From Hyphomicrobiales bacterium (GTDB taxonomy: Bacteria; Pseudomonadota; Alphaproteobacteria; Rhizobiales; Xanthobacteraceae), in the NCBI GenBank assembly GCA_017305665.1, contig JAFKKH010000020.1:79248-143247 (forward strand): DNA of 64,000 nt, written 5' to 3'. The first letter of the stretch is position 1, and each line of letters starts with the position of its first letter. The position numbers were made by a program, and so were the translations under genes. Below are positions 11,636 to 27,781 of the stretch, one piece after another. The notes under the pieces are model-generated. The model was not told the origin of the DNA. It saw nothing but the letters and a program-made list of their open reading frames with translations, and searched no databases.

Positions 11636-11665
11636 GTAAGATTTCCTCGCAGAGGATGGAGACAA

Positions 11666-11699
11666 AATCGGCGCGCAGCAGAACGGCGGCGCGCCGATT
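11666..11699 (-). terminator. 11-bp hairpin between xoxF and xoxG, attenuator-like
   Basis: AATCGGCGCGC and its exact reverse complement enclose a 12-nt loop. On the transcribed strand the stem runs directly into a TTTT-containing tract. It lies just after the xoxF stop and ends 30 nt before the xoxG start. It could terminate most transcripts or protect the 3' end of xoxF mRNA, so that XoxF is made in excess over XoxG. Confidence 0.6.
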
Positions 11700-11719
11700 G
11701 ATGTCACTTCACAGTGCTC

Positions 11720-13594
11720 TTACTCCGACGGCAGAGCGAACACGGTCAGCGTCCCGCCGAGCGAGGTGTAGGACGCGAGACCCGCATAACCACCGACGGC
11801 GCCAAGACCCGCGGTATCGACGGTCTTGTCCTTGGTCGGCAGCTTGCCCTGGTCAACCGCATTGTGCCACGCCGCGGCATTTTGAGGCTGCAGCAGGCCA
11901 GCCGCAAGGCCGATACCCGCCCAACCGCCGACGCCGGAGAGTACGGCAATGTATTGCTTGCCGCCGTGCTCATAGGTCATGACGTTGCCGATGATGCCGG
12001 ATGGGGTCTTGAACTTGTAAAGCTCCTTGCCCGTCTTGGCATCGACCGCCTTCAGATAACCTTCGAGCGTACCGTAGAACACGACGCCGCCGGCCGTTGC
12101 GAGAGCACCACCCCACGCGGAGAACTGCTCCTTGTTCGACCAGACGATCTTCCCGGTCTTGCCGTCCCAGGCGATGAAGTTGCCCATGTTGGAATCACCC
12201 TTGGGCGGATACATCGCGACGGCGGCACCGACATAAGCCTGACCTGCGGTGTAGGCCACCTTGTAAGGCTCATAGTCCATGCAGACGTGGTTGGTCGGGA
12301 CGTAGAACAACTGCGTCTCCGGGCTGTAGGCTGCGGGCTGCTCGTCCTTGGTACCCAGTGCCGCCGGGCAAATGCCCTTCGAGTTGTGGTCCTCGCCGCC
12401 ATGCTGCGTGGAATAGGCGTCGACCACCAGCGGACGACCGTAGGTCTTGGACGACTTGTCCATGTCGATCTTGGTAGCCCAGTTCACGACCGGATCGAAT
12501 TTTTCCGCAACCAGCAACTCGCCGGTGGCGCGATCAAGCGTGTAGCCAAAGCCGTTACGGTCGAAGTGCGTCAGCACTTTCCGCATTTTGCCGCCGATCT
12601 TCTGATCGGTGAGGATCATCTCGTTGACGCCGTCATAATCCCACTCGTCGTGTGGCGTCATCTGATAGATCCACTTGACCTTGCCGGTATCGAGGTCGCG
12701 CGCCCAGATCGACATCGACCACTTGTTGTCGCCAGGCCGCTGTACCGGGTTCCATGTCGAGGGGTTGCCTGAACCGTAGTAAACGAGGTTCAGCTCGGGA
12801 TCGTAGGAATACCAGCCCCATGTGGCACCGCCACCGATCTTCCATTGATCACCCTGCCAGGTCTTGATCGATGAATCCGGTCCGACTGGCTTGCCGAGCG
12901 ACGTCGTCTTCTCGGGATCGATCAGCGTGTCGGAGTCCGGCCCTTCCGAATAGCCGCGCCAGGCGAGCTTGCCGTCCTTGATGTTGTAAGCGCTGACCCA
13001 GCCACGAACGCCGAATTCGCCGCCGGAAACGCCAACTAGCACCTTGTCCTTGAATACGAACGGCGCATCCGTTCCGGACTGACCCTTGCCGGCCTCGCCG
13101 TCCATCACCGACCACACCTTGGCGCCAGTCTTGGCGTCGAGCGCAACCAGTGTCGTATCCGCCTGATGCAGGAAAATCTTGCCATCGGCATAAGCGACGC
13201 CACGATTGACCGTATCGCAGCACATGATCGGAATGACATTCGGATCCTGCCGGGGCTCATACTTCCAGATGATCTTGCCTTCGTGATTGAGATCGAGCGC
13301 ATAGACCGTGTTCGGGAACGGGGTATGCACGTACATCACGTCGCCAACGACCAGCGGGCCGCCTTCATGGCCGCGCAGTACACCGGTCGAGAAGGTCCAG
13401 GCGACCTGTAGCTTCTTGACGTTCGACGCGTTGATCTGCTTGAGCTTCGAGAACCGCGTGTTCGCGTCGTCACCTTGCTGCATGACCCATTGCTTGGGAT
13501 CCTTGGCAAGTTTGTCCAATGCCTCATCGGCGCGAAGCGCCGATGTCTGCATGACCATGAGGCTAAGACCGGTAGCGAGTAACACTTTGCGCAT
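11720..13594 (-). CDS. xoxF: XoxF, lanthanide-dependent PQQ methanol dehydrogenase
   Basis: This periplasmic quinoprotein oxidises methanol, and often formaldehyde, using PQQ and a light lanthanide. A signal peptide covers residues 1-22. The vicinal CysCys of the PQQ pocket is at 125-126. Metal ligands by family alignment are Glu193 (GGEFG), Asn277 (GSGNPSTW) and Asp319. Asp321 completes the DYD motif (HDEWDYDG) that marks lanthanide-dependent XoxF; calcium-type MxaF has Ala there. Length is 624 residues. A strong GGGAGG ribosome binding site precedes the ATG. It heads the leftward xoxF-xoxG-frmA-gfa unit and is divergent from an AraC regulator. Confidence 0.97.
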
Positions 13595-13977
13595 AGTGAA
13601 TCCTCCCAGTTGTTAGCGAAGTGTTTCCGTAAAAGACGGGCCACTTTTCAGTTTTCTTCACGAGTATCTTACCCGGTCCGGAATAGGAAACTTGCCCGAG
13701 AGAGAAGCGCGTTTGCGCGAAAGCGAAACACATCGATCTTTTTAACGGGACTCGAAACCTTCGCTGGCCGCAGGGCGTTTATGTTGCGCAGCATCATCGG
13801 CCGCGCTTCCTCTTGACGGCGCGAAAACTAAGTCCGAGGATTATCAGAGGGATGACAGCAGGGCGTGCTGTTCCAAAGCCCCAAGACCGCCTTAAATCGG
13901 GGCCAGAATTATTTCGATCGTGACAGTGCCTTTATCGGTAAGCGGTCACGTTTCGATTTCAGATCGGTGGCTGGATA
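13595..13977. promoter_or_regulatory. Divergent promoter region between xoxF and AraC regulator
   Basis: This 383-bp gap must hold the promoters of both xoxF and the AraC gene. It contains a spaced inverted repeat, CGTGAC at 13919-13924 and GTCACG at 13945-13950 (20-nt spacer), shortly before the AraC start. It also contains a CGCG-TTTG-CGCG element near 13710. No convincing gene lies inside. Which element is an operator cannot be decided from sequence. Confidence 0.45.
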
Positions 13978-14952
13978 ATGTCCGACACGGTTCACTCGCT
14001 TAACACTAGCGGTTTCACACCGAAGAAGCAGATCCAGGTTTGGTCAGATGCACTGACTGATCTTTGCGGCCGTTTCGACATCGATCCGCTGGAGGCTTCG
14101 TCATTCGAAGGCCGGATCAACTATACGACGGTCTCGAAGCTCAAGCTCTGTCAGATCGAGGCGAGTCAGCATCGGTTAGCACACGCAGCATCCCGCACCG
14201 AACCGGGCGGCCACCCCTTCGTCAAAATATTATTTCAAACTTATGGCATCTCGCACTTCGAGCAGAGCGACCGCCACATCGAGCTGATGCCTGGCGACTG
14301 TCTGGCCTACGATGTGTCCTGCCCGCATACGATCGTCAGCCCGACGCTGACTCGGCACGAGGTCGTTATCGTGCCGAAGACGCTGTTGCAGGAACGCGGC
14401 TTCCGCTCAGCGAAGATGACGGCATGCAAACTCTCGGCGCGGACGGGCACCGGCCGGATCGCGTACAATTTTGTCCACGCCGCGTTCGACGAAGCAGCCA
14501 AGTTGTCCCCGAACAACGCGATCGGGGTTGCTGATTCGCTTATCGACCTCCTGCTGTTGCCGCTCCGCGAGGCCGACGTGATGTTCGATCGGGGTGGGCC
14601 CGAGGCAATGCATGTCCGGGCTCAGTTCTTCATCCGCGAGCATCTGCGCGATCCTGATCTTTCCATCGATCGGATCTCGGCGGCCCTGGGCTGCACCAAG
14701 CGCTATCTGCACATGCTCTTCAGCGACCGGGGCACCACTATCAGCGACTATATCCGGCATGCAAGGTTGCAAAACTGTCGCCAGGAGCTCGAGACCCAGG
14801 CTGGAAAATCCATCACGGATGTCGCATTTTCGTGGGGCTTCTCAAGCTCGTCCCACTTCAGCCGTGTATTCCGGGAATATTTCGGAGTCGTTCCGTCTGC
14901 GATCCACAAAGCACAGTACGGCAGCGCCTCGTCTGACGGTTCTTACGAATAA
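13978..14952 (+). CDS. AraC-family transcriptional regulator divergent from xoxF
   Basis: A 324-residue cytosolic regulator. The N-terminal 200 residues resemble the cupin-like AraC ligand domain (HFEQSDRHIELMPGDCLAYD). The C-terminal part (about 215-315) has the two AraC helix-turn-helix motifs, with LSIDRISAALGCTKRYLHMLF and the signature ITDVAFSWGFSSSSHFSRVFREYFG. It is transcribed away from xoxF across a shared promoter region, so it is a good candidate controller of methanol oxidation. Its ligand (alcohol, aldehyde, metal state) is unknown. Confidence 0.9.
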   Translation: MSDTVHSLNTSGFTPKKQIQVWSDALTDLCGRFDIDPLEASSFEGRINYTTVSKLKLCQIEASQHRLAHAASRTEPGGHPFVKILFQTYGISHFEQSDRHIELMPGDCLAYDVSCPHTIVSPTLTRHEVVIVPKTLLQERGFRSAKMTACKLSARTGTGRIAYNFVHAAFDEAAKLSPNNAIGVADSLIDLLLLPLREADVMFDRGGPEAMHVRAQFFIREHLRDPDLSIDRISAALGCTKRYLHMLFSDRGTTISDYIRHARLQNCRQELETQAGKSITDVAFSWGFSSSSHFSRVFREYFGVVPSAIHKAQYGSASSDGSYE

Positions 14953-15028
14953 CCTCTGCCTAAGCACGGCAGATACTTCGTATGCATCGTCGCTGGATAT
15001 CTTGGAATCGTTGACAGGACGCCTGCCA

Positions 15029-15059
15029 CGGCTCGACACAAAGCTTGCTGATCGAGCCG
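15029..15059. terminator. Hairpin between the AraC gene and pqqA
   Basis: CGGCTCGA and TCGAGCCG (8-bp stem, 15-nt loop) lie 22 bp beyond the pqqA stop and 76 bp beyond the AraC stop. These genes converge here, so it may act as a shared terminator. There is no clear T tract, so confidence is low. Confidence 0.35.
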
Positions 15060-15080
15060 GGCAGATCGCTTCGATGTCGC

Positions 15081-15161
15081 CTATTTGCGCGCCGCGCAAG
15101 CGTACATGTTGATTTCCATACCCACTTGCACTTCGACAATCTTAGGAGTCTTCCAGGTCAT
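15081..15161 (-). CDS. pqqA: PqqA, peptide precursor of the PQQ cofactor
   Basis: A 26-codon gene encoding a peptide that begins MTWKTPKIVEV and contains Glu16 and Tyr20 in the EINMY motif. PqqE cross-links these two residues, which are then excised to build PQQ, the cofactor of XoxF. The start MxWxxP and the E-x3-Y spacing match PqqA. A GGGAGGATGG ribosome binding site precedes the ATG. No pqqBCDE genes are in the window, so this copy stands apart from the rest of the pathway. A longer upstream frame to 15446 is spurious. Confidence 0.93.
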   Translation of the reverse strand: MTWKTPKIVEVQVGMEINMYACAARK

Positions 15162-15177
15162 TCCATCCTCCCAGGTG

Positions 15178-15208
15178 GTTCGGCGCAATCTCCACGCCAA
15201 CGCCGAAC
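15178..15208 (-). promoter_or_regulatory. Leader hairpin upstream of pqqA
   Basis: GTTCGGCG and CGCCGAAC form an 8-bp stem with a 15-nt loop ending 16 nt before the pqqA ATG, directly in front of its ribosome binding site. Such a 5' leader structure could tune pqqA translation or mRNA stability. It is seen in sequence; the role is inferred. Confidence 0.4.
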
Positions 15209-15336
15209 TTAGGAGTCCGCCCAACATCACGCAAGTACGACAGATTGAAAGTCGAACACCCGTAGTTCTCTCCTGAATAAAACAACTTCTCTCTCGGACA
15301 ATGCGCTCACGCAGCGACGTGATCTGAACGAGAAAA

Positions 15337-16539
15337 TTATTTAAGCGAGCATTTGGTCTCGGGGCGATCAAGACCGAGCGTATCGAGCGTCGATACCTGA
15401 TGGAGGAAGCCTTCCTGAGGCGAAACGGATACCGTGTTTCTGCCATCGAACAACAGGATCGGCTGCCGCAACTGCAAATTCCAGTCGCGAAGCGTCAACT
15501 TCTGACCCTTGAAAGCTGCGACAGAGAACGCCGGGCTTTTCAGGTACGCGAGCATTTTCGCCGAATCGTTGGAGCCGGTTCGGGCCGCGGCTTCACCGAT
15601 CATGCGAACCGCCGTCCACACCTGCATGTCGTGCGCTGTCATCGGGCGCTGGAACGCCTTCGTAAAGCGGTTCTGCAGTTGCACGGCACCCCATTGATCA
15701 AACGCCGCGTCCCACGTGGTAGGCACTAATCCGGCAGAGCCGGCGACCGGGCGAGCGTCCCAGGTACGGTACGGCAGATAGCCAGCAAACACCTCGCTTT
15801 CGTCCGCCGCGACCAGAACATCATGGTCAGGAAGACTTTGCGTCACCACCGGCATCTGCTTCTGGATCTCGGCAATACCGCTGTCGGTCCGCCGCGCGCC
15901 GCCGTTGTCCTTGAATACTCGTTCCTCGACGATCTTGGCGCCAAACCGCTTCGCTGCATGGCGCAACGCACCGGCGAACAGCTTGTCGTTGTCGTGCGAC
16001 CCAACAATCAGCGCCCATTTGCGCCACTTCTTCCAGACCAGGTATTGCGCCAGCCCGTCGGCCAGCATGGAACGCGTGGGCGCGACATGAATGACATTGG
16101 CGCGGCAATTCTCTTCGCGCAGGCGCTCGTCCAGAGCCAAAGCGTTGAAAAAGGTTTCGCCACGCGCCTTGCCGGCATCAGCTGTCTTCAGAAGGCGGTC
16201 AGCATCGAGGCTCGTAACGATGAAGGACACGCCCTGATCGGCCAGCGCACTCATGGCCGTGACCGGATCATCGTTGTCGCCGACGAGTTTCTCGATCAGC
16301 GTGTAATGCTGCTTGAGAAAGCGGCCGGTCGTATTGTCGTCTTTGATCGCCAGTTGAGCACCGGCAAGCCCATCGTTGGCGGCCGGCACGTCGATCAGCG
16401 ATATCCGGATTCGCGACGGCGCCTGGTGCAGATAGCCGATCTTGATTTCCAGCGGCTGGTCGGCCCGGCCGGTTCCATTCAAAGCGATGAGCACGAGAAC
16501 GCCAATCAGGAACCGGAGCAAATCGAATCTCCATGCCAT
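15337..16539 (-). CDS. Quinoprotein-associated ABC substrate-binding protein (PedA1/LutA-like)
   Basis: A 400-residue exported periplasmic binding protein of the branched-chain amino acid receptor fold. The signal peptide is LLRFLIGVLVLIALNGTGRA, the mature start EIKIGYLHQAPSR, and the middle contains WALIVGSHDNDKLFAGALR. This subfamily accompanies PQQ alcohol dehydrogenases (TIGR03863 type). Relatives are LutA of the Methylobacterium lanthanide uptake cluster and part of Pseudomonas PedA1A2BC, needed at low lanthanide. The ATG at 16539 has a GGAG site; 16581 is a possible longer start. It faces away from the beta-propeller gene. Its likely partners are the ATPase and permease at 27.8-29.4 kb. 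Confidence 0.85.
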   Translation of the reverse strand: MAWRFDLLRFLIGVLVLIALNGTGRADQPLEIKIGYLHQAPSRIRISLIDVPAANDGLAGAQLAIKDDNTTGRFLKQHYTLIEKLVGDNDDPVTAMSALADQGVSFIVTSLDADRLLKTADAGKARGETFFNALALDERLREENCRANVIHVAPTRSMLADGLAQYLVWKKWRKWALIVGSHDNDKLFAGALRHAAKRFGAKIVEERVFKDNGGARRTDSGIAEIQKQMPVVTQSLPDHDVLVAADESEVFAGYLPYRTWDARPVAGSAGLVPTTWDAAFDQWGAVQLQNRFTKAFQRPMTAHDMQVWTAVRMIGEAAARTGSNDSAKMLAYLKSPAFSVAAFKGQKLTLRDWNLQLRQPILLFDGRNTVSVSPQEGFLHQVSTLDTLGLDRPETKCSLK

Positions 16540-16724
16540 GTTCGACCGCTCCATGCGCTCGTTTCGATTGCGCCGCAACATCGCCGACCGAAGCTCGCGC
16601 CTGTTTGAGCTTTCACGCTACTCCATCTATCGTCCGAAGCAAGCAACGCCGCCGGCTGATAAAAGTTGAAACGGCCGCGATTTGTTCGCCGGGCGTTTCG
16701 GGCTGCATGTTGGAGAACACACCC

Positions 16725-17708
16725 ATGTTCGCTTTGCGCTGGATCACAGTAACAGGCCTGTCTTTGTTCGCGTTTCTTGTCTCATTCGATCCCGCCTTTG
16801 CGTTCCTTGCCTATGTTTCGAATGAAAAGGGCAACTCGATCTCGGTGATCGACACCGACAAAATGGAGACCGTCGACACCATCAAGACGGGACAGCGGCC
16901 GCGCGGCATCGAAGTTACTCATGACGGCAAATTGATTTTTGTCGCCGTCGGTGACGACGACAAGATACAGACCTTCGATACCAAGACCCGCGAGGACGCC
17001 GGCGATTTACCGTCAGGCGCGGACCCCGAACAGTTCATCCTCGATCCATCCGGGAAATTCCTCTACGTCGCGAATGAGAACGATTCGATGGTGACGATCA
17101 TCGACACGGCGAAACGTACGGCCATTGGACAAGTGTCGGTCGGTACGGAACCCGAAGGCATGGCAGTCAGCCCGGATTCCAAGATGCTGATATGCACCTC
17201 CGAGACGACGAGCATGGTTCACTTCATCGATCCGGCGACCCGCGAAGTTGTCGACAATCTGCTCGTCGGCTCCCGGCCGCGTTTTGCTGAATTCAAGTCC
17301 GATGGATCGGAATTGTGGGTCACATCGGAAATCGGCGGGAGCCTCGCGATCATCGACCCGACAACACGAAAGATCAAAAAAACCGTGACATTCGAAGTTC
17401 CGGGCCTGAGATCCGAATCGATCCAGCCGGTCGGCATCAATATCACCAAAGACGGCAAGCTGGGCTTCATCGATCTGGGGCCAGCCAATCGCGTGGCGGT
17501 GGTCGACGGCGTCACGCACGCCGTCCTGAAATATTTGCTGGTGGGTCAACGCGTCTGGCACGGCGCATTCACACCCGACGAAAAGTACCTGCTCGTTGCC
17601 AATGGCGTTTCAAACGACGTTTCGGTGATCGACGTCGCAGCTCAGAAAGTGATCAAATCCATTCAGGTCGGCGAACTGCCGTGGGGCGTTGCCTTCGGGC
17701 CGAAATAG
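16725..17708 (+). CDS. PQQ-associated YVTN beta-propeller protein
   Basis: A 327-residue exported protein. A signal peptide (about 1-26, LSLFAFLVSFDPAFA) is followed by repeated 40-residue blades, each with the YVxNExxxSIsVIDT pattern (AYVSNEKGNSISVIDT, YVANENDSMVTIIDT, LLVANGVSNDVSVIDV). The family regularly sits beside PQQ alcohol dehydrogenases (TIGR03866 type), and a similar protein occurs in lanthanide utilisation clusters. The role is unknown: scaffold, metal handling or PQQ handling are all possible. The ATG at 16725 has a GGAG site; 16707 is an alternative. Confidence 0.85.
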   Translation: MFALRWITVTGLSLFAFLVSFDPAFAFLAYVSNEKGNSISVIDTDKMETVDTIKTGQRPRGIEVTHDGKLIFVAVGDDDKIQTFDTKTREDAGDLPSGADPEQFILDPSGKFLYVANENDSMVTIIDTAKRTAIGQVSVGTEPEGMAVSPDSKMLICTSETTSMVHFIDPATREVVDNLLVGSRPRFAEFKSDGSELWVTSEIGGSLAIIDPTTRKIKKTVTFEVPGLRSESIQPVGINITKDGKLGFIDLGPANRVAVVDGVTHAVLKYLLVGQRVWHGAFTPDEKYLLVANGVSNDVSVIDVAAQKVIKSIQVGELPWGVAFGPK

Positions 17709-17753
17709 GTACGCGCAACGCCTCCGCTGCACCGCGCATGGGCGATGCCCGGA

Positions 17754-17960
17754 TCAAATCCTCCGTTTTTCATGGCCGGGATATTCGCAGCTCCATTTCT
17801 TGGCGGTCCACTGCGGATGATCGCCGATCCACTGGGCGATGTAGGGTTGTGCGGCCATCATGCATTGATTGATGGAGCCATCCCACGCGAATTGAAGATA
17901 TTTTTCTTCACAATGGGCCGGATTCGCGATGGCGCAGACAGTCAGGATGATCTCGATCAT
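17754..17960 (-). CDS. 68-residue cysteine-containing small protein of unknown function
   Basis: A small protein with a hydrophobic N-terminus (MIEIILTVCAIANPAHC), four cysteines (about 9, 17, 33 and 58) and five tryptophans or so in the rest. It could be exported or membrane-attached, with disulfides. A GAGGACACTGG ribosome binding site precedes the ATG. It lies between the beta-propeller gene and fghA on the opposite strand, inside the methanol/lanthanide region. I do not recognise the family. Confidence 0.65.
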   Translation of the reverse strand: MIEIILTVCAIANPAHCEEKYLQFAWDGSINQCMMAAQPYIAQWIGDHPQWTAKKWSCEYPGHEKRRI

Positions 17961-18156
17961 TCCAGTGTCCTCTATCCAACAATGAACCCGAGGATATTAC
18001 GCCGAGTTTGCCATCCCGTCTCGAATTTCGTTTGAACCGTGCCGAGCAGCCGTGGTTCCATGGCCGTCAGCCGCGCAACCGGACCACGCCCACGATTATC
18101 AGCCGCCGGCATCCGTGATAATCATCGCGCCGTTGGAACGCCGGAGACAGAAAGTT

Positions 18157-19002
18157 ATGTCCCTCGAAACTATCTCGCTGAACACGTCGTACGAAGGCAC
18201 GCAGGGCGTTTACAGACACGCCAGCCGCGAGACGAAGACAGCGATGACCTTCTCCGTCTATGTGCCTCCGCATCGGGCGAACGCGAAACTGCCGGTGATT
18301 TATTATCTGTCGGGCCTGACCTGCACGCACGCCAATGTCACGGAGAAGGGCGAGTTTCGGCGGGCCTGCGCTGAACTCGGCATGGTTTTCGTTGCGCCGG
18401 ATACCAGCCCGCGGGGCGAAGGCGTGCCGGATGATCCTGCCGGCGCCTACGATTTCGGACTTGGCGCGGGCTTCTATGTCGATGCCACGCAGCCTCCGTT
18501 CGCGGAAAACTACCGCATGTGGAGCTACGTGACGGAAGAACTTCCCGAATTGATCGCCGGGCATTTCCCGGTTGATGCAACGCGGCAATCTATTCTCGGG
18601 CATTCCATGGGCGGCCATGGTGCGCTCACGATTGCGTTACGCCATCCCAAGCGTTATCGCGCCGCCAGTGCTTTCTCGCCAATTGTTGCCCCGTCACAGG
18701 TGCCGTGGGGGATCAAGGCGTTGGGTGGCTATCTCGGGGGAGCGCGCGCGTCCTGGCGCGGCCACGACACGATCGCGTTGATCGAAGATGGCGCGCGCTT
18801 CTCTGAGTTTCTCGTCGACTATGGCGACGCCGATCAATTCCTGACCGAACAGCTTCGCCCCGAGCTTTTGCAGCAAGCCTGCACACAGGCAAACATCCCG
18901 CTGACCCTTCGCCGCCACGCCGGCTATGACCACAGCTACTATTTCATCTCGACTTTCATGGACGACCATATCCGCTGGCATGCCGCACGATTGGCGGCAT
19001 GA
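18157..19002 (+). CDS. fghA: FghA, S-formylglutathione hydrolase
   Basis: This cytosolic esterase-D type alpha/beta hydrolase splits S-formylglutathione into formate and glutathione, the last step of the pathway run by Gfa and the class III dehydrogenase. The 281-residue product has YYLSGLTCTHANVTEKGEF, the oxyanion-side APDTSPRG, the nucleophile motif GHSMGGHGAL (Ser near 149) and the late HAGYDHSYYF carrying the catalytic His. The ATG at 18157 follows a GGAGACAG site; the longer frame from 18052 is rejected because the family starts at MSLETIS. Confidence 0.95.
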   Translation: MSLETISLNTSYEGTQGVYRHASRETKTAMTFSVYVPPHRANAKLPVIYYLSGLTCTHANVTEKGEFRRACAELGMVFVAPDTSPRGEGVPDDPAGAYDFGLGAGFYVDATQPPFAENYRMWSYVTEELPELIAGHFPVDATRQSILGHSMGGHGALTIALRHPKRYRAASAFSPIVAPSQVPWGIKALGGYLGGARASWRGHDTIALIEDGARFSEFLVDYGDADQFLTEQLRPELLQQACTQANIPLTLRRHAGYDHSYYFISTFMDDHIRWHAARLAA

Positions 19003-19027
19003 TCCGGCCGCAACCGTTCCGTTCGGA

Positions 19028-19552
19028 CTATTTTGTAGGAGTGCCGTCGCCTGATGGCGCGTCGGGCGGGAGCCGGTTCCGCACCAGAAAGCGCACGCCG
19101 TGCTCATAAGCCTCAGGTGTGTCGCCGCGAATCTGGCCGCCAAGGTGTGCAATCCTGGCGCCGTTGGAAGCGTCGATGATCCAGATGTCCATGGATGAGA
19201 TCAGCGACGACACCTTGTGAACCACGGACACGACTGCGTAGGCCGCACCGGCCTTACGCGCCACAGGCAGAAAGCAGTCGCCGCATCGATACCGTGGCAC
19301 GGTTTTTGCGATCTCGGCACTGAACGGTTCGAGATCAATGGGAGAATAACGTCCGGTTTTCTCCAGTGCCTGCGACAGGACGCGCGTCGCCATCGCGAGC
19401 CTTTCAGCCCGGTCGGGCTGCGGAGGCTCACCGCTGGTGTCGTAGATCTCGAAGGGAAAGATGGCCGCTGCCGGCGCAGCCATGACACCGGTGCAACCCA
19501 CGGCACAGACAACAGCTACCAATATCCTCGCCGACATTGCTGAGGACGCCAT
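19028..19552 (-). CDS. Exported DUF2380/DUF3280-like protein
   Basis: A 174-residue protein with a signal peptide (ARILVAVVCAVGCTGVMAAPAAA) and then IFPFEIYDTSGEPPQPDRAERLAM. It also has a CGDCFLPVARKAGAAYAVVSVVHKVS block and DIWIIDASNGARI. The pattern resembles secreted domains of unknown function found near PQQ dehydrogenases in methylotrophs. The Cys pair CGDC may form a disulfide or bind metal. It converges on fghA with only 25 bp between stops. The ATG at 19552 is preferred over an in-frame GTG at 19597. Confidence 0.75.
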   Translation of the reverse strand: MASSAMSARILVAVVCAVGCTGVMAAPAAAIFPFEIYDTSGEPPQPDRAERLAMATRVLSQALEKTGRYSPIDLEPFSAEIAKTVPRYRCGDCFLPVARKAGAAYAVVSVVHKVSSLISSMDIWIIDASNGARIAHLGGQIRGDTPEAYEHGVRFLVRNRLPPDAPSGDGTPTK

Positions 19553-19695
19553 CGTGACTCGATCCCGCGCGATCCCGAAGTCGTTTTCTGTTAACACGCA
19601 CGCGGCGCGATGGCATCATCCATTTTTCGGCCACTACGGATGCAAGCTCTCGCAAGTGACGGAGAAAGTCATCAATGTTCCAGGAGCAGCGCAAC

Positions 19696-20037
19696 ATGAC
19701 CAAGGCGATTATTCTGGCGACTTTCATTTTGGCATTCACGTCCGCGGGTGCGTTGGCAAAGGACACCCGGTTCTGGAACCTGACCGCTAACACGATCACC
19801 GCGCTGCAACTTTCACCAGCCGGCAAAAACGAATGGGGCCGCAATCAGACCGACAACGACCGCGACCGCACCGTGGATCACGATGAGCGGCTGAAGATCA
19901 CAGATACAGCCACCGGCGTCTACGACGTGAAATTCACCGACAAGAGCGGACGGACCTGCGTGGTCCCGAATGTCGAGATCAAGGCAAATGGGATTTTCAC
20001 GATCGAAGAGAAGGTTTTGAAAGACTGCACCAAATAA
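19696..20037 (+). CDS. Small periplasmic protein with an EF-hand-like acidic loop
   Basis: A 113-residue exported protein with signal peptide 1-22 (IILATFILAFTSAGALA). The mature part looks like a small beta-sandwich (FWNLTANTITALQLSPAGKNEWG, then GVYDVKFTDKSGRTCVVPNVEI), with two cysteines that could pair. Residues 53-64 read DNDRDRTVDHDE: acids at positions 1, 3, 5, 9 and 12 and Val at 8, which fits an EF-hand loop except for the usual Gly at 6. In a lanthanide-utilisation locus this suggests metal binding, by inference only. The ATG at 19696 has a GGAGCAG site; ATG 19675 is unlikely. Confidence 0.8.
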   Translation: MTKAIILATFILAFTSAGALAKDTRFWNLTANTITALQLSPAGKNEWGRNQTDNDRDRTVDHDERLKITDTATGVYDVKFTDKSGRTCVVPNVEIKANGIFTIEEKVLKDCTK

Positions 20038-20235
20038 TCGCAGCCGAACCTTCGCCGTAGAAATGGATGCCTGTCAGAGCAATCAAGATGCGGTCTTTGC
20101 CGCGCCGCATCCAAAACCCGCACAGCCGACCCTAACGGCTTCTGCCACCATTGCCATCCCATCCGGAGAATGGACAGGATCTAGCGGTGAGTTCGCCATT
20201 CCTTTGATGAATGGACAGCGCGGATAATTTCTCGC

Positions 20236-21234
20236 ATGAATGACCGAGTGAGAACCAACTCTCTATTCGGCGGTCTGGTAGTGGCACTCTGTCTCATAGT
20301 CGGGACAGCCCCGACGCTGGCCGCAGAGACGTTGCGCATCGGACTGCAGACCACCGGCACATTTGCCTGGCAATTGGACGTGATCCGCCGCCACAACCTT
20401 GCGAAGCGCGCCGGTCTCGATCTGAAAATCAGCGGCTTTGCATCTCCCGATGCCGGCAAGCTCGCCATCAACAGTGGCTCGGTCGACATCGCCGTCGTCG
20501 ATTTTCTGTGGGTCGCTCGCGCCCGTGCGCTCGGCGCCAAATTGCTGTTCTATCCGTACTCCAGCGCGGTGGGCGCAATCATGGTGAAGAATGATTCGCC
20601 GCTGAACAAACTTAAGGACCTCAAAGGTCACGTTCTCGGCGTTGCCGGTGGCCCGCTCGACAAAAGCTGGCTGATCGTCCAGGCCGCCGCCATTCGCCAG
20701 GGCATCGATCTCAAGAAAAGTGCGACGCTGCAATATGGCGCGCCGCCGCTGATTTCCCAGAAATTGCAACAGGGCGAGGCTGAAGCAAGCCTCAATTTCT
20801 GGAATTTCTGCGCCGACCTGGAGGCGCGAGGCTATCGTCGCATCTTCGAGGTGCGCGACGCTGAAACCTCCCTGGGGGTGAAAGAACCGGTCGCCATGAT
20901 CGGTTATGTGTTTTCCGAGTCATTCGCCGCCACACACCGAAGTGCGATCGACCGCTTCATCGAAATCACGCAGCAAGCCAACGATATCATGCTGCAATCG
21001 GATCAAGAGTGGGACGCGCTGCGCCCCCTGATGAACGCGGAGGACGACCGGACCTTCAAGGCCTATCGCGACCGAACCAGAGAGGGCATGCCGCGACGGC
21101 CCGTGACCGCCGAAGTCACCGATGCCAGCGCGCTGTTCCATACTCTCGCCGCGATCGGCGGCTCGGACCTCGTAGGGCCGTCGCAAGAACTCGACCAGAG
21201 TCTCTACTATCAACCGGCCCGGCGCGGAGACTAA
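20236..21234 (+). CDS. NitT/TauT-type ABC substrate-binding protein in the methanol cluster
   Basis: A 332-residue periplasmic solute receptor. The signal peptide (FGGLVVALCLIVGTAPTLAA) is followed by ETLRIGLQTTGTFAWQLDVIRRHNLAKRAGLDLKI, typical of the SsuA/TauA/NMT1-like fold. It starts a compact SBP-permease-ATPase cassette whose genes are 3 bp apart or overlapping. Family members bind sulfonates, nitrate or thiamine precursors. The setting among lanthanide genes hints at another ligand, possibly a metal chelate, but no ligand residue can be assigned. Confidence 0.88.
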   Translation: MNDRVRTNSLFGGLVVALCLIVGTAPTLAAETLRIGLQTTGTFAWQLDVIRRHNLAKRAGLDLKISGFASPDAGKLAINSGSVDIAVVDFLWVARARALGAKLLFYPYSSAVGAIMVKNDSPLNKLKDLKGHVLGVAGGPLDKSWLIVQAAAIRQGIDLKKSATLQYGAPPLISQKLQQGEAEASLNFWNFCADLEARGYRRIFEVRDAETSLGVKEPVAMIGYVFSESFAATHRSAIDRFIEITQQANDIMLQSDQEWDALRPLMNAEDDRTFKAYRDRTREGMPRRPVTAEVTDASALFHTLAAIGGSDLVGPSQELDQSLYYQPARRGD

Positions 21235-21237
21235 GCG

Positions 21238-21975
21238 TTGCAGAGATTTCTTTCGCTAGCCGTCATGATCACGACCTGGGCTATCGCCGCAGCCCTGGTG
21301 CATTCGCGGTTGCTCCCCAGCCCGCTCACGGTCGGCGCGACCACTCTCGCGGAAATTCGCTCGGGCGAATTGCCATTCCAGATGGCCTGCACCCTTGGAC
21401 GCGTCATCGGCTCCTTCGCTATCGCAATGCTCCTCGGCAGCACCATGGGTTATGCGATGGGACGCTTGAAGCCATTGGACCGTTTCGCCGATTCATGGCT
21501 GGTCGTACTGATCAACATGCCGGCGCTGGTCATCATCATCTTCGCCTATATCTGGATCGGCCTGAACGAGACCGCTGCGATTTTGGCGGTCGCCATCAAC
21601 AAGCTGCCGAATGTCATTGTGGTGATGCGCGAAGGCGCCCGCGCGCTCGATCCCGAGATCGACGAAATGGCGCGCGCTTTCCAGTTCTCCAGAATCAAGA
21701 GAATCCGTCATGTCGTGATCCCACAGCTTGCTCCTTATCTGGCGGCCAGTTCGCGCTCCGGCCTCTCCATCGTCTGGAAGATCGTGCTGGTTGTCGAACT
21801 GCTCGGGCGGCCCAATGGCGTGGGCTTCGTACTCGGCTCGGCATTCTCTCTGTTCGACATGGCGAAGATCCTGAGCTATGCGATTTGCTTCATCGTACTG
21901 ATGTTGGTCATCGAAAGCCTTGTCGTGCAACCGCTCGAACGACGCGCAAACCGCTGGCGGCGCCGCCTTGCTTGA
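21238..21975 (+). CDS. ABC transporter permease, NitT/TauT type
   Basis: A 245-residue inner-membrane permease with about six helices. It carries the importer loop that contacts the ATPase, here EIDEMARAFQFSRIKRIRHVVIPQLAPYL (about 140-168), close to the EAA consensus. Translation probably begins at the TTG 3 bp after the binding-protein stop. The gene overlaps the ATPase gene and works with both neighbours as an uptake system of unknown substrate. Confidence 0.88.
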   Translation: MQRFLSLAVMITTWAIAAALVHSRLLPSPLTVGATTLAEIRSGELPFQMACTLGRVIGSFAIAMLLGSTMGYAMGRLKPLDRFADSWLVVLINMPALVIIIFAYIWIGLNETAAILAVAINKLPNVIVVMREGARALDPEIDEMARAFQFSRIKRIRHVVIPQLAPYLAASSRSGLSIVWKIVLVVELLGRPNGVGFVLGSAFSLFDMAKILSYAICFIVLMLVIESLVVQPLERRANRWRRRLA

Positions 21976-22693
21976 GCTCCGCATCGACGCCAAGAGCTAC
22001 CGATCGGCAGAGGGTACGCCGATCGAGGTCGTTCGTGACCTGAAGCTTCAGCTCGAGGCCGGATCGTTCGGCGCGCTGATCGGCCCGTCCGGCTGCGGCA
22101 AGACCACCATCCTGAAGATCGCGGCCGGGCTCGACACCGACTTTCGCGGTGAAGTTCGAAGGCCGGAATCCGGTCGGCTCGGAATGGTGTTTCAGGAGCC
22201 GCGCCTGCTGGCATGGCGCACCGTCGATCAAAACATCCGGCTTGCGCTTCCGCCGGAGCGAGCGGGCGTCGATCTGACAGACCTCATTGAAACCCTCGGC
22301 CTCGGTGCTCACCTCGCGCTATATCCCGGCGAATTGTCGCTCGGACTTGCGCGCCGCGTCGCTATCGCCCGCGCTTTTGCCGTCGATCCGGATTTTCTGC
22401 TACTCGACGAGCCCTTCGTGTCGCTCGACGAGGCAACAGCCGACCGGCTGCGCGGCGAACTGATTGCGCTGACCGAACGAACCAAAGCGACGACTCTGCT
22501 TGTCACGCATGATCTGCCGGAGGCCGTGCAACTGGCTGATCGGCTGTTTTTCCTGTGCGATCGACCGACGCGGATCGTTCTGGAGCAAGAACTGCCCCCG
22601 CGTTACACGCGCAGCAAGGATACGGTGACATCGATCAGCGATGAAATGCGCGCGCTGGCGGTGCAGGCCGTGGCAGGCGCCCACGGAAACTGA
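21968..22693 (+). CDS. ABC transporter ATPase, NitT/TauT type, with unusual signature motif
   Basis: The nucleotide-binding subunit of the cassette. Walker A is GPSGCGKTT, Walker B is DFLLLDEPF, and the switch His lies in VTHDLPEA. The signature reads LSLGLARR instead of the canonical LSGGQ, a clear deviation. A TTG at 21968 gives 241 residues and an 8-nt overlap with the permease. A TTG at 21920 is an alternative, and neither has a strong ribosome binding site. The stop is 3 bp from the convergent response-regulator gene. Confidence 0.88.
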   Translation: MLELRIDAKSYRSAEGTPIEVVRDLKLQLEAGSFGALIGPSGCGKTTILKIAAGLDTDFRGEVRRPESGRLGMVFQEPRLLAWRTVDQNIRLALPPERAGVDLTDLIETLGLGAHLALYPGELSLGLARRVAIARAFAVDPDFLLLDEPFVSLDEATADRLRGELIALTERTKATTLLVTHDLPEAVQLADRLFFLCDRPTRIVLEQELPPRYTRSKDTVTSISDEMRALAVQAVAGAHGN

Positions 22694-22696
22694 AGG

Positions 22697-23317
22697 TCAG
22701 ACCAGCCGGCTCTCGATCGCGAAGCGCACGAGTTCCGACAACGAGCGCAGACCGAGCTTCTGGCGAATGATTGAAGATGCATTGGCAATCGTCTTGTATG
22801 ACGAATGAACCAGCCATGCGATCTCGGAAAGGTTCTTGCCGTTGCTGAGCAGCCGCAAGATCTCGATCTCGCGCGTCGTTAGCTTCGACAGCGGACTTTG
22901 AGCGAAAGCCGGTCCTGCGAAGGCCACGCTTCGCGCGATCGCCGCCGGCAGGTAGACCCCACCATTGCCGACTTCACGAATGGCCTCGACGAGGTCGTTG
23001 GGATCGCCGGATTTCGAGACATAACCCTTGGCGCCAACCTCGATTGCGCGCGCGGCGAACACCGGATCATCGTTCATGCTGAACATGATGATGCGCGCGG
23101 TGGCCACATGCGCAAGAATGCGCCGTGCCAGCTCAAATCCCGAAACCGTCGGCAGATTGATGTCAAGGACGCAGATATCGGGCTTTTCGGCGACGAACAT
23201 CCGCTCGCCACTCTCTGCGTCGGACGCCTCCAGGATCGCGATCTCCGGGTCGCCCGCGAGCAGCGCACGGCACCCCGAAGCCACAATCGGATGATCATCG
23301 ACGATCAGAACACGCAT
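22697..23317 (-). CDS. NarL/LuxR-type response regulator
   Basis: A 206-residue two-component regulator. The receiver domain (1-120) has the acidic pocket DD at 7-8, phosphoacceptor Asp52 (VLDINLP) and Lys near 102 (YVSKSGD). The LuxR-type DNA-binding domain covers about 140-203 (LTTREIEILRLLSNGKNLSEIA). It is divergent from the histidine kinase that is its obvious partner. Location beside the TonB receptor and lanthanide genes suggests that it regulates them, comparable in placement to the MxbDM-type control of methanol genes, but this is inference. Confidence 0.92.
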   Translation of the reverse strand: MRVLIVDDHPIVASGCRALLAGDPEIAILEASDAESGERMFVAEKPDICVLDINLPTVSGFELARRILAHVATARIIMFSMNDDPVFAARAIEVGAKGYVSKSGDPNDLVEAIREVGNGGVYLPAAIARSVAFAGPAFAQSPLSKLTTREIEILRLLSNGKNLSEIAWLVHSSYKTIANASSIIRQKLGLRSLSELVRFAIESRLV

Positions 23318-23526
23318 CGGCGTTGGCCCGAATCCCGTGTCAGCCTTCGTTATTGCATCGCATCGAACAGAGCAGCAAACGTATCATTCGCCTCAAACCT
23401 GTTCTGGTCAGGATTGTGCATCCCGGCCGCAGTTGCGGTACGCTTCAATTAGATAACCACCCTTTTTGTCTGTCAACGTTCCTCTTGATGCAACAGCGGC
23501 GCGGGCCGCGATACTGGACGAAGACG

Positions 23527-24990
23527 ATGTGGCAGAAATTATCCTTGCGCTCTCGCCTCACCTTGCTGCTGGCGCTGGTTCTCACGTTGGGTCTCGCGAT
23601 CAACATCGCGCGGCTGGTGTTCGAAGCTGGCCCTCGCGTTCAGGCAGAAGACCAGAGCGTGATTCGGCTGGCTCGCGAGTTCACCGAAACATTGGTGGCG
23701 GGATTGAATGAAATGCGCGATCCCGACGCGCGGCTCATACAGATCGTCCAAAACCTCAACCGGTTGCGCCACGTCAGTATCACGCGGCAGGAAGATACGG
23801 CGGATAACTCCGAGACGGCCGCGAACAGCGATAATAACGAGAAGCGATCCTCGGTTCCGGCGTGGTTCGTTTCCCTCATCCACCCGGAAAAGACCGCAGT
23901 CAGCGTTCCGATTTCGATCGGCGACCGGGCGGAACATCTGGTGATCACGTCACATCCGGACGACGAGATGAACGAAATCTGGGACGGGATCATGACCCAG
24001 CTCGAAGTCGGCTCCGCGATCGCGGTGGCGCTTTTTCTGATCACGATGATGGTGGTCAACCGGGCGCTGGCGCCCCTTCAGTCGCTTTCCGACGCCATGA
24101 CCGATATCGAATCCGGTAGCTACGATACACGCGTAAAGCCCGACGGCTCGCCCGAACTCGCCGCTATCTGCATCAAGCTCAATCACCTTGCAGCAACGCT
24201 TGGCAAAGCCGTCGAAGAAAAGCGGCAACTGGCCGAGCGCGCGGTTTCTCTGCAGGATGCAGAGCGCAAGGAGATTGCGCGCGAGCTCCACGATGAGGTT
24301 GGCCCCTATCTCTTTGCCCTGAGAGCGCATGCCAGTTCGCTGATGCGGACCGCCGGCTTATCCGAGCCGAACGCCGAGGTTCTACACAAGCACGGCACTG
24401 CGATTCTTGAGCACGTCAACGCCTTGCAACAATTCAATCGGCGGGTGCTCGAACGACTGCGGCCGATTGGCCTTGCGGAACTCGGCCTGCGCGAGGCGAT
24501 CGGTGCATTGCAGCGCCTGTGGCGCGAGACGCATCCGGGCGTGGCGATCGAAACTGCGATCTCGTCTTCCCTGGGCGCCGCCGGCGAGACCGCGGAATTG
24601 ACGATCTACCGCATCGTCCAGGAGGCCCTGACCAACGTATTCCGGCACGCCCGCGCGACCGAAGTCGAGATTACAGTTCAGCCTGCATCCTATCGGCAGA
24701 TAGGAACCACATCTGATAGGATCGAAGCAACCAAAGTCAGCGTGCGCGACAACGGCGCTGGTCTTCCGCCCGATCACAAGCAAGGTTTCGGCATGATCGG
24801 GATGCGCGAGCGGGTGCTTGCGCTGGGCGGCACCATGACGGTCGCCTCGACAGCCCGAGGGGTAACTGTCGAGGCGCTCGTTCCCAATGCCCCCTCCATG
24901 CCACCGAGTTCTGATAGCTTGCGCAAGTACATCCGCGATAGGACTCATTCGCGGTCGGACCGAGAAATGCTGCCTAGAACTTTGCCCTGA
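23527..24990 (+). CDS. Sensor histidine kinase (HisKA_3 family) paired with the response regulator
   Basis: A 487-residue membrane sensor. One transmembrane helix is at about 8-32 and a second near 158-180, bounding a periplasmic sensor of about 125 residues; a HAMP domain lies at about 180-232. The H-box ERKEIARELHDEVG contains His255. The ATPase domain has ALTNVFRHARA, DNGAGLP and GFGMIGMRERV. This NarX/DegS-like kinase should phosphorylate the divergent response regulator. The ATG at 23527 has a GGACGAAG site; upstream starts are rejected. Its 3' end overlaps the convergent TonB-receptor gene by 17 bp. Confidence 0.92.
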   Translation: MWQKLSLRSRLTLLLALVLTLGLAINIARLVFEAGPRVQAEDQSVIRLAREFTETLVAGLNEMRDPDARLIQIVQNLNRLRHVSITRQEDTADNSETAANSDNNEKRSSVPAWFVSLIHPEKTAVSVPISIGDRAEHLVITSHPDDEMNEIWDGIMTQLEVGSAIAVALFLITMMVVNRALAPLQSLSDAMTDIESGSYDTRVKPDGSPELAAICIKLNHLAATLGKAVEEKRQLAERAVSLQDAERKEIARELHDEVGPYLFALRAHASSLMRTAGLSEPNAEVLHKHGTAILEHVNALQQFNRRVLERLRPIGLAELGLREAIGALQRLWRETHPGVAIETAISSSLGAAGETAELTIYRIVQEALTNVFRHARATEVEITVQPASYRQIGTTSDRIEATKVSVRDNGAGLPPDHKQGFGMIGMRERVLALGGTMTVASTARGVTVEALVPNAPSMPPSSDSLRKYIRDRTHSRSDREMLPRTLP

Positions 24991-27535
24991 TACCGGCATA
25001 CGCGGAGAGCGGCATGCCCGGCACGAAGGAGCGGGGATCGCTCAGTTGCGCCATCAGATTGGGGGCACCGCCGGCACTCGTAAAGCCACCGGCCCCGAAG
25101 AACGTGCCGCCGAGATAGTAGTGCTGGTTGAAGACGTTGTTGATCAGGCCGAACACCTCAATATTCGGCGTGATTCGATATGAGGTGTGCAGGTTGACGA
25201 CAGTATAGGCCGGCACCTTCGGGCTCTGGTTGGTGGAGTCGCCAGCGAGCCATTGGCTACCCACGACGTTCACGTCGGCTCCGACCTTCCATGCGTCCGT
25301 GGCTTGGTACTCGATGCCGGCCTTGAATCGATGCGCGGGAATGCCCGGAATATGGTCGCCCGGCTTGACATTGATAAATTGCACGTCGTCGTTATTTGGG
25401 TCGGTCAAAGCATTTGGATTGCCCGGAGACGACAGTGTGTTCGCGCTTTGGTAGGTCGCGTCGATATAGGTGTAGTTTGCGTAGGCATTCCATCGCCCGA
25501 ATCGATAATCGAGCTTGGCCTCGATGCCTTGCCGCAGCGTCTGTCCCGCATTCTGGAAGAAGCCGAAATTATTCACGCCAAGCGGGCTTGTGACCTGGAT
25601 GATGTCATCGTCGGACATGGTCCGGAACACGCCGAGGCCCCACGTTAGCATGCCGAACCGTGCATCGCGTCCCCAGCCACCGCGCAGTCCTGCCTCGATA
25701 GTATGCGACACGACTTGCTTGAGTGGCGGATCGGCCACCAGAAAGCTGTCAATCATGCAGGGATGGTTGGGATCAGAACAGCCGAGCTCGAGCGGCGTCG
25801 GCGCTCGATTGGCCTCTGAATAGCCGGCATAGGCGGTGAGGTTCGGAGTGATCTTGAAGGTGCCGCCGATTACCGGGTTGAAGCGCTGGAAGCGGTTGTT
25901 GCTGTTGAGCAGGTCATTGGTTCCGGTCTGGTCCTGCAAATCGATCTGCGCGTAATTGAATCGCCCGCCCGCCGTCACCGAAAACCTGTTGGTTACATCG
26001 AACGTATCGGTGAGGTAGACGCCGGTGTAGGTGTTGGTGGCACGCAGATCGACCGGGCTGAGGCCGGCATCCGGCTGGTTGATGAAGACCCCGGTGCCGC
26101 TGACGAACAGATTGTTCGGATCGATTGTCCCGAGTTCGCTGGTTGCAGTGAATTGTGTATTCCCATGATCGACACTGACGCCCATCACGACGTGGTTATC
26201 GTGCCCGAACAGCCGGTCCGTATTGGTCAACTGGGCTGTGCCGCCGAAGCTGTTGGTCGCAGCCTGGTTGCGATCGATTTCGCCAAGGAAAGCGTTCCCG
26301 AGCGTGTTCGGTGTCGGTGGACCACCGCTCGCTGGACCTGAGATCGGAAGGCCATCGCCGATGCACAAGTTCGTGGGATCGTCGCAGGGCGCGACATCCG
26401 TGCCGTTGCCGTCGATATGGGACTGCCGGAAGCCGCGGAAGTAGGCGTTACCTTGGAACGACCATGTGTCCGAAAAATTGTGATTCAGGGTCGCGTTAAC
26501 GAAAGCGAGTTGAAGCAGCGTCGACTGCGGCCAGGTATAGACGCTCGACCACCGCTGATTGAGCATCTGGATCGGCGTTGCCGCGACATTCCCGAGCAAA
26601 TTGCTGGCGCCGGTGAAATTGACGTGGAATTCGGTGTCGTCGTTGCGCGCACCAACGTCCACGTACATGCGATTCACGTGAGACGAATTTGCGAAGTCGC
26701 GCCAGCCTCTGTCGTAAGCGGATTCGAACGCCGCGTATGCGGAGACGTTGTCCTTCTGGGCGCCGGCCTGCACGCTGCCCTGCACGCGTCCGTAGGAGCC
26801 CCCGAACAGTTCGGCCTCGGAGCCCTGATAGGTGAAGCCGTTCTTCATCTGGATGCTCAGCGCGCCACCGATCGCATTGAGGCCGAAGACAGGATTGTTG
26901 GGAAAGAGCGAAACCCGATCAATGGCCTTCTCTGGAATGAAATCCCAATTGACGACGTCGCCCCAGGACTCGTTGATCCGCACGCCGTTCTGGTAGACCG
27001 CGATACCCTGCGGCGTCCCCTGAACTGGCGAGGCGGTGAAACCGCGGTAGTCGAGATCGCGCTGGAACGGATTGCCGGTCTGGTCGCCCAACGTAACGCC
27101 GGGCAATTTCCGATTCACGGAATCAAGAAAGTTCGTCGAATAGTTGCGGCTGAAATCCGCCGATGTCAGCACCTCGGTATTGGACGGAACCTTGTCGCGA
27201 TCAATCAGGCTCGCGTCGCGATCGGAAGCCCCCGGGGCCCTTGAGGCCGCCGTCTGCACTATCGGCGCCTGAACGCGCGCGCGTCGTACTCGGGTGGTTC
27301 GCGGTCTGCTTGCTACCTGCCGACTTGCCGGCTTCGGACTGCGCGTCCCGGATAGCGGCGATGGAGCAATCACGGTAACTGGCGGCAGTTCGGTCGATGC
27401 GGATGCGTTAGCCTGAGCGCGTGCGCTCGTAGGTTCCATTGCGATCCCAACGGCAAGCAGGACGGCCGTGGCTCCGCACATGTGCGGGAAGAAGAATGGA
27501 TATCGAGTCGCTGCACGTAACAACGCAACGTTCAT
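24974..27535 (-). CDS. TonB-dependent outer-membrane receptor, candidate lanthanide/lanthanophore receptor (LutH-like)
   Basis: An 853-residue outer-membrane protein. The signal region is followed by ELPPVTVIAPSP and an unusual Arg/Pro-rich linker (residues about 60-100). A plug domain comes next (TEVLTSADFSRNYSTNFLDSV, YRGFTASPVQGTPQGIAVYQNGVRIN), then a 22-strand-type barrel ending with the aromatic signal SAYAGIRAKF. Position within quinoprotein-associated ABC genes parallels LutH, the receptor required for lanthanide uptake in Methylobacterium. Extracellular loops contain acidic stretches such as DPNNDD. The ATG at 27535 gives a good export signal; an upstream frame to 27619 is less likely. 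Confidence 0.88.
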   Translation of the reverse strand: MNVALLRAATRYPFFFPHMCGATAVLLAVGIAMEPTSARAQANASASTELPPVTVIAPSPLSGTRSPKPASRQVASRPRTTRVRRARVQAPIVQTAASRAPGASDRDASLIDRDKVPSNTEVLTSADFSRNYSTNFLDSVNRKLPGVTLGDQTGNPFQRDLDYRGFTASPVQGTPQGIAVYQNGVRINESWGDVVNWDFIPEKAIDRVSLFPNNPVFGLNAIGGALSIQMKNGFTYQGSEAELFGGSYGRVQGSVQAGAQKDNVSAYAAFESAYDRGWRDFANSSHVNRMYVDVGARNDDTEFHVNFTGASNLLGNVAATPIQMLNQRWSSVYTWPQSTLLQLAFVNATLNHNFSDTWSFQGNAYFRGFRQSHIDGNGTDVAPCDDPTNLCIGDGLPISGPASGGPPTPNTLGNAFLGEIDRNQAATNSFGGTAQLTNTDRLFGHDNHVVMGVSVDHGNTQFTATSELGTIDPNNLFVSGTGVFINQPDAGLSPVDLRATNTYTGVYLTDTFDVTNRFSVTAGGRFNYAQIDLQDQTGTNDLLNSNNRFQRFNPVIGGTFKITPNLTAYAGYSEANRAPTPLELGCSDPNHPCMIDSFLVADPPLKQVVSHTIEAGLRGGWGRDARFGMLTWGLGVFRTMSDDDIIQVTSPLGVNNFGFFQNAGQTLRQGIEAKLDYRFGRWNAYANYTYIDATYQSANTLSSPGNPNALTDPNNDDVQFINVKPGDHIPGIPAHRFKAGIEYQATDAWKVGADVNVVGSQWLAGDSTNQSPKVPAYTVVNLHTSYRITPNIEVFGLINNVFNQHYYLGGTFFGAGGFTSAGGAPNLMAQLSDPRSFVPGMPLSAYAGIRAKF

Positions 27536-27781
27536 GGCGCCCACCCTGTTGCCGCGGCTCGTCATTGTCCTCAACAAACCTGCGCTTGAGAGACTGCTCA
27601 AGGAGGCTGCGTTTGGCAAACGCGAATCCGTTGCGCGTTCGGGATTTTTTTTCCAACTGATCGGGAAAAATTCCCGGCTTCTGATCGAGCCAGCGGCTCG
27701 GCCTCGCGCGTTCTACGCCGGCATGAAGGTCACGTTCTGAAACATCAAAACGAACCTCCAGTCGCGAGCACACCGGGAATT

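Follow-up and report, generated by a model that had tools for sequence, protein, structure and literature searches.

A candidate rare-earth-binding protein with a conserved EF-hand-like loop, encoded among lanthanide-uptake genes

A small exported protein, encoded in a lanthanide locus of a Hyphomicrobiales bacterium, carries a single loop of EF-hand type. As this loop is strongly conserved, and as its gene often lies beside rare-earth uptake genes, the protein is, on sequence grounds, a promising candidate for another type of natural rare-earth binder. We put at about even the chance that it is a periplasmic, one-site lanthanide binder or chaperone in the place of landiscernin (LanD), with an EF-hand-like loop that arose by convergence in a beta-rich family. 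The portions of the literature available to us name three small periplasmic lanthanide binders, LanM, LanD and LanP, and we found no description of the loop protein in open-licence papers, likewise available in part. Unnamed proteins of ~110-130 amino acids are reported from XoxF3 clusters of Acidobacteria and others (PMC10875860, excerpt). The stretch of DNA analyzed, here called the window, is 64,000 nucleotides long.

Results

The loop-protein gene lies at 19696-20037 (+ strand). Translated from the ATG at 19696, it encodes 113 amino acids, the length given in an earlier note made from this DNA alone; a longer ORF, of 120 amino acids, starts at 19675. By eye, residues 1-21 (19696-19758, +) read as a probable signal peptide, ending in AGALA and followed by KDT. 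The EF-hand-like 12-residue loop, DNDRDRTVDHDE, occupies residues 53-64 and exactly positions 19852-19887 (+), where the earlier note had placed it, and the acids that were read at loop positions 1, 3, 5, 9 and 12, with a hydrophobic residue (Val) at 8, are indeed there. A six-frame translation of the whole window contains its acid pattern, [DE]x[DE]x[DE]xx[hydrophobic][DE]xx[DE], a single time. The protein matches no Pfam model above cutoff (EVI2A gives a sub-cutoff match, with E 0.009 and 16 bits where the cutoff is 25) and no NCBIfam or PHROG model at E <= 1. Neither the protein nor the profiles of the two branches of its family gave a PDB match below E 0.28, so that no solved structure of the family was found, and a plasmid search for the loop gene gave no match.

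We drew homologs from three sources: the window's genome and 60 near genomes, with a match in 7 of the 61; a scan of GTDB contigs, which gave 13 loci (one of them, L019, labelled Acetobacteraceae); and 397 genomes of the order, with a match in 37. The compared set comprises 38 motif-bearing loci, in which near-duplicates (L010 and L012, for example) each count separately, and 24 non-redundant representatives below 80% identity. Across the class, where 289 genomes were searched, the window's own genome alone had the loop motif; with few genomes per family, this says little about rarity.

The loop is conserved across this set. D55 (position 3) is invariant, and D57 (position 5) is Asp in 36 loci and Asn in the other two (D55-x-D57, 19858-19866, +). 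Along V60-D61-H62-D63-E64, which are positions 8-12 (19873-19887, +), the same residue recurs in 35, 35, 32, 37 and 38 loci, respectively. E64 is invariant, D61 is otherwise Glu (3/38), and D63, an acid that the earlier note did not list, is Asn once. Homologs in lanthanide loci keep the acids, so that the proposal of a metal loop passes the sequence test set in that note, which turned on whether such homologs lack them. The note's further statement, that a missing Gly at position 6 is the only major departure from the EF-hand consensus, has to be revised: position 6 is Arg in the window protein and Gly in 12 of the 24 representatives, and the unconserved ligand is position 1, which is acidic in 8 of the 38 loci (Asp 7, Glu 1) and otherwise Leu, Lys or Ala.

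Codons tell a similar story. Among seven close homologs, all 39 pairwise differences at the motif codons 55, 57, 60, 61, 63 and 64 are synonymous, and the mature protein outside these six codons has a pN/pS of 0.22. Acids outside the motif are mostly variable, with the exception of D77 (36/38). Judged by its codons, the loop is under strong selection. A chance resemblance in an acid-rich surface loop might be imagined, as the same acid pattern arises in 161 of 100,000 shuffles of the mature window protein, a rate at which some chance cases are expected per whole proteome. The conservation over 38 loci and 24 representatives, together with the lack of non-synonymous change at the motif codons, makes this extremely improbable.

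A second possibility is that the acidic loop is a docking surface for another protein (a cytochrome c, LanM or the ABC binding protein) and holds no specific metal. R65 (36/38) and H62 are kept beside the acids while position 1 is free, and a metal site needs neither of the two. However, the 3-5-9-12 spacing, the Gly at position 6 in half of the representatives and the Val at position 8 make up a metal-loop pattern, and a docking patch needs no such register. We therefore regard docking as quite improbable.

The motif-bearing proteins group together within a larger exported family that has no name, and the motif is missing from its other members in our sample. In 20 related loci (profile E 3.6e-11 to 6.6e-4), the full spaced acid motif is absent in register from all 20; one of them, L108, has an off-register match to the acid pattern. 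Their loop columns contain 1 to 6 acids, and 14 of the 20 rows have gaps in the loop, for example RKD---TVAAGK. Profile comparison of the two branches with hhalign (99.3% probability, E 4.6e-20) identifies them as homologous. In a tree of 57 of the 58 rows (L133 was too short and was omitted), the motif rows fall on one side of one branch, with support 91/97 and in 92% of 200 bootstrap trees, on a short alignment for which the program warned of long branches meeting.

Among the 20 motif-less relatives, acids occur at loop position 3 in 11, at 5 in 6, at 9 in 11, at 11 in 1 and at 12 in 5. Judging by these frequencies, the acids at 3 and 9 could be ancestral, and those at 5, 11 and 12 appear to have been gained. 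In three relatives (L107, L108 and L136), the loop has the same length and carries acids at positions 1, 5 and 9, Gly6 and Leu8, but neither position 3 nor position 12 is acidic. This is perhaps a half-formed intermediate or a different site, and its equal length suggests that the loop was not a clean one-step insertion in one clade. Together, the motif-less relatives and these three offer a ready evolutionary control for the making of such a site.

In true EF-hands, position 1 is the most conserved ligand. Set against the EF-hand ligand scheme (positions 1, 3, 5, 7, 9 and 12), the window loop fits, and the homologs fit at the side-chain positions except 1. The PROSITE EF-hand pattern allows R at position 6. 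In its 13-residue form, the pattern matches none of the 38 motif loci, and its first 12 positions match 7; position 13 of the window protein (R65) is Arg, not hydrophobic. The earlier note had envisaged a scaffold other than the EF-hand, and the sequence searches agree: there is no Pfam EF-hand match above cutoff in the window protein or in 14 homologs scanned, and one of the 14 gives two sub-cutoff matches (E 0.084 and 0.48), the window protein none. By eye, the flanks of the loop look like strands.

Lanmodulin (LanM; PDB 6mi5, 8fns, 8dq2) resembles the loop protein in being exported, of about 12 kDa, and built on EF-hand-type 12-residue loops, and the loop of one homolog, DNDKDGTVDHDE in L016, is identical to the first Mex-LanM loop at 8 of 12 positions. 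Yet lanmodulin has four EF loops 12-13 residues apart, where the loop protein has one, and the window protein lacks Pro at loop position 2. The best BLASTP alignment (E 0.056) covers loops only. The comparison with LanM and LanD suggested in the earlier note gives no homology to LanM beyond the loop and none to LanD, and we rejected lanmodulin as an identity for the protein. Lanpepsy (LanP) is likewise a periplasmic lanthanide binder outside the LanM family, and consists of two PepSY domains (PMC12482762, excerpt). It too was rejected: the window protein has no PepSY match, and a scan of 14 homologs yielded a single one, no better than E 0.32.

EF-hand-like loops are known from other scaffolds. 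According to the accessible part of one study, Dx[DN]xDG calcium loops arose many times in non-EF-hand folds, including strand-loop-strand arrangements, and bind Ca2+ (PMC3123361). The loop described here differs in that its position-1 Asp is unconserved and its gene is linked to lanthanide genes. The definition itself does not cover it, as the window loop has R at position 6 and D stands at position 1 in 7 of 38 loci; L016 has the full DNDKDG. The repeated origin of these loops favors what we consider the main rival, namely that the loop binds calcium and steadies a turn, and that the linkage to lanthanide genes reflects a partner role (with an ABC transporter or PQQ dehydrogenase) or shared ancestry.

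The genes around the loop gene bear on this question. As the earlier note had proposed, the setting is a lanthanide locus, with lut homologs and a XoxF-type dehydrogenase on the same window. The PQQ methanol dehydrogenase of XoxF type (TIGR03075; 11720-13594, -) has a D-Y-D motif (D319, D321) where XoxF enzymes, in the literature excerpts available, have their lanthanide aspartates, and adjoins a probable cytochrome c (11111-11707, -; CxxCH by eye). Homologs of LutA (substrate-binding protein, TIGR03863; 15337-16581, -), LutB (beta-propeller protein, TIGR03866; 16632-17708, +), LutF (ABC permease, TIGR03861; 27782-28630, -) and LutE (ABC ATPase, TIGR03864; 28627-29430, -) occur together near xoxF with a TonB-dependent receptor (24974-27619, -), which is LutH-like by position and 37-42% identity. 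A LutG-like protein (34434-34952, -) is 37% identical to LutG of the Methylobacterium-like locus L081. LutC and LutD gave no match in the window's genome at E <= 0.01. We took the Lut names from gene order in Methylobacterium-like L081-L083 and L085 (LutA-B-C-D-E-F-G-TonB-LanM), L084, in which no TonB match was seen, and an excerpt of PMC7391723. In agreement with the window, the available part of PMC12628762 reports a similar inventory for Bradyrhizobium, where lutA, lutB, lutE, lutF and lutG have homologs and lutH a weaker one. LanM was not seen in the window and is encoded elsewhere in its genome (G000:C6, 67% identity).

Linkage to such genes extends to the homologs. With marker thresholds and a 12-kb limit of our choosing, lut, lanM or xoxF markers lie near the loop gene in 29 of 38 motif loci vs 1 of 20 motif-less relatives (Fisher 1.3e-7, a value that overstates independence because the species are related, the markers are window-derived and the motif loci are the nearest relatives). 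The counts are 28/35 vs 1/20 after L019, which has a TonB marker only, is set as unmarked and stretches of <=5 kb (L013, L017 and L142) are dropped. L135 (G222) gave no row in this comparison, and G365 was left out. In 12 of the 38 loci (L014-L016 and 9 of 13 g24 genomes), lanM itself is within 12 kb. Since the markers are the window's own neighbors and the motif loci its nearest relatives, shared ancestry explains part of the linkage.

Whole genomes show the same tendency. The 22 loop genomes of the 397-genome set, defined by a profile E below 1e-25, have XoxF in 20 and LanM in 13, vs 98 and 53 of all 397 genomes of the order; 15 genomes of that set with weaker family matches only have XoxF in 3 and LanM in 3. 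Among 32 further near genomes, the loop gene is present in 4 (G012, G013, G018 and G028) and XoxF in 4 (G010, G012, G013 and G028). Eight congeners of the window's genome have no loop gene, XoxF or LanM at the cutoffs used.

There are exceptions, which count against a lanthanide chaperone, as does the unconserved position 1. Nine of the 38 motif loci are unmarked, three on stretches of <=5 kb and six on longer ones (L089, L098, L099, L101, L102 and L105). Three genomes (G357, G362 and G018) carry the loop and no XoxF at cutoff, G018 also being without LanM. In G018, the loop gene adjoins, by eye, putative formylmethanofuran dehydrogenase genes; in G362, it sits beside LutA-, LutB-, LutE- and LutF-like genes and a more distant dehydrogenase. 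The six unmarked loci on long stretches also speak for calcium. Against it stands the motif-less family (consensus near WEEDxLGxDxLxxG), which is homologous to the window protein but has no lanthanide marker within 12 kb in 19 of 20 loci; a structural calcium would predict no such link, which shared ancestry could produce in part. On balance, we judge calcium binding to be unlikely.

Landiscernin (LanD/LutD; PDB 9c8w) is the known protein whose place the loop protein may hold. Both are small exported proteins of lut clusters, possibly at the same point of the pathway, but landiscernin is a 61-residue chain with another gene position and no alignment with the window protein. LutC, LutD, LutG and LutI queries were taken from L081 by gene order, and its LutD matches the solved LanD chain 9c8w at E 2.4e-16. 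BLASTP of the loop protein against this LutD gave no alignment at E <= 100, 9c8w is absent from the PDB matches of the window protein and its profile, and tblastn of the four queries on the window found LutG only (34434-34952, E <= 1e-6). We rejected all four as identities for the loop protein. Its gene is flanked by DUF3280/FghA on one side and an NMT1-type ABC transporter on the other, whereas LanD is encoded between lutC and lutE.

The loop gene and LutD seldom share a genome. LutD was not found in 25 of 26 loop genomes at E <= 0.01, and was present in 6 of the 31 genomes searched, namely five Methylobacterium-like controls and G208. G208 has both, with the loop gene on a contig other than that of the lut cluster. 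LutC was found in 8 of the 31 (the five controls, G208, G244 and, weakly, G012 at E 0.0086). The near-exclusion of the two suggests that the loop protein stands in for LanD, but may also just follow a lineage split. LanD reportedly offers only four protein ligands, in a surface site.

About 200 bases downstream of the loop gene, on the same strand, are the genes of an NMT1-type ABC transporter: an NMT1/SsuA-like substrate-binding protein (20236-21234, +), a permease (21238-21975, +) and an ATPase (21920-22693, +). At least two of the three are found within 3 kb and on the same strand in 22 of 38 motif loci, which makes a joint role in uptake plausible for the loop protein and the transporter. 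In a Beijerinckiaceae strain, ssuABC genes are described as lanthanide-responsive without alkanesulfonates (PMC10848612, excerpt). This NMT1/SsuABC-like system (20236-22693, +) is distinct from LutAEF.

Discussion

We favor a model in which a lone EF-hand-like metal loop evolved from one turn of an unnamed, probably beta-rich exported family. If it works as EF-hand loops do, loop positions 3, 5, 9 and 12 would supply side-chain ligands and position 7 its backbone carbonyl, and position 1 would not be required. D63, at position 11, would perhaps belong to the second shell; in Hans-LanM, an Asp at position 11 reportedly supports an Arg (PMC11845868, excerpt). Most likely, one trivalent lanthanide would be bound in the periplasm, in a partly open site. 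An open site with no fixed ligand at position 1 would suit transfer, and recalls the four-ligand site of LanD. The loop protein might shuttle the lanthanide among lanmodulin, XoxF and the components of uptake (LutH, LutAEF and the NMT1-type ABC transporter), and would thereby take the position held by landiscernin in Methylobacterium. We infer metal binding, a preference for lanthanides, the beta fold and the role in transfer from the patterns described above. LanM is encoded in the window's genome as well, so a second binder is not obviously needed.

The fuller claim, that this is an undescribed family of lanthanide binders with a beta-type scaffold and an open site without a position-1 ligand, replacing landiscernin in Bradyrhizobium-like and Roseiarcus-like lut pathways, falls in our estimate a little short of an even chance. 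If it is true, a further scaffold would join the known ones, implying that lanthanide chaperones evolve repeatedly, and the working of lut clusters that lack LanD would be easier to explain. Rare-earth separation or sensing would also gain a small protein with one binding site.

Several observations concern the wider locus. The divergent neighbor of the loop gene encodes an exported-looking DUF3280 protein (19028-19597, -; Pfam E 1.4e-32), relatives of which are found near LutA in L082-L085. Between the ABC genes and the TonB receptor is a response regulator and histidine kinase pair (22697-24990), which recurs in L010-L012 and L014-L016 and is a possible lanthanide-responsive regulator. The window's genome has its lut/XoxF cluster (11111-29430) and a LanM gene on another contig (G000:C6:10904-11212), and eight congeners gave no XoxF, LanM or loop gene at the cutoffs used, consistent with one gain or repeated loss. 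In L105 (4487-8144), the loop gene is near putative formylmethanofuran dehydrogenase subunits, read by eye, in a genome with no XoxF match at cutoff. Finally, LanM in L090-L093 and L111-L114 has as its neighbor a second PQQ dehydrogenase, which shares 38-39% identity with the window XoxF.
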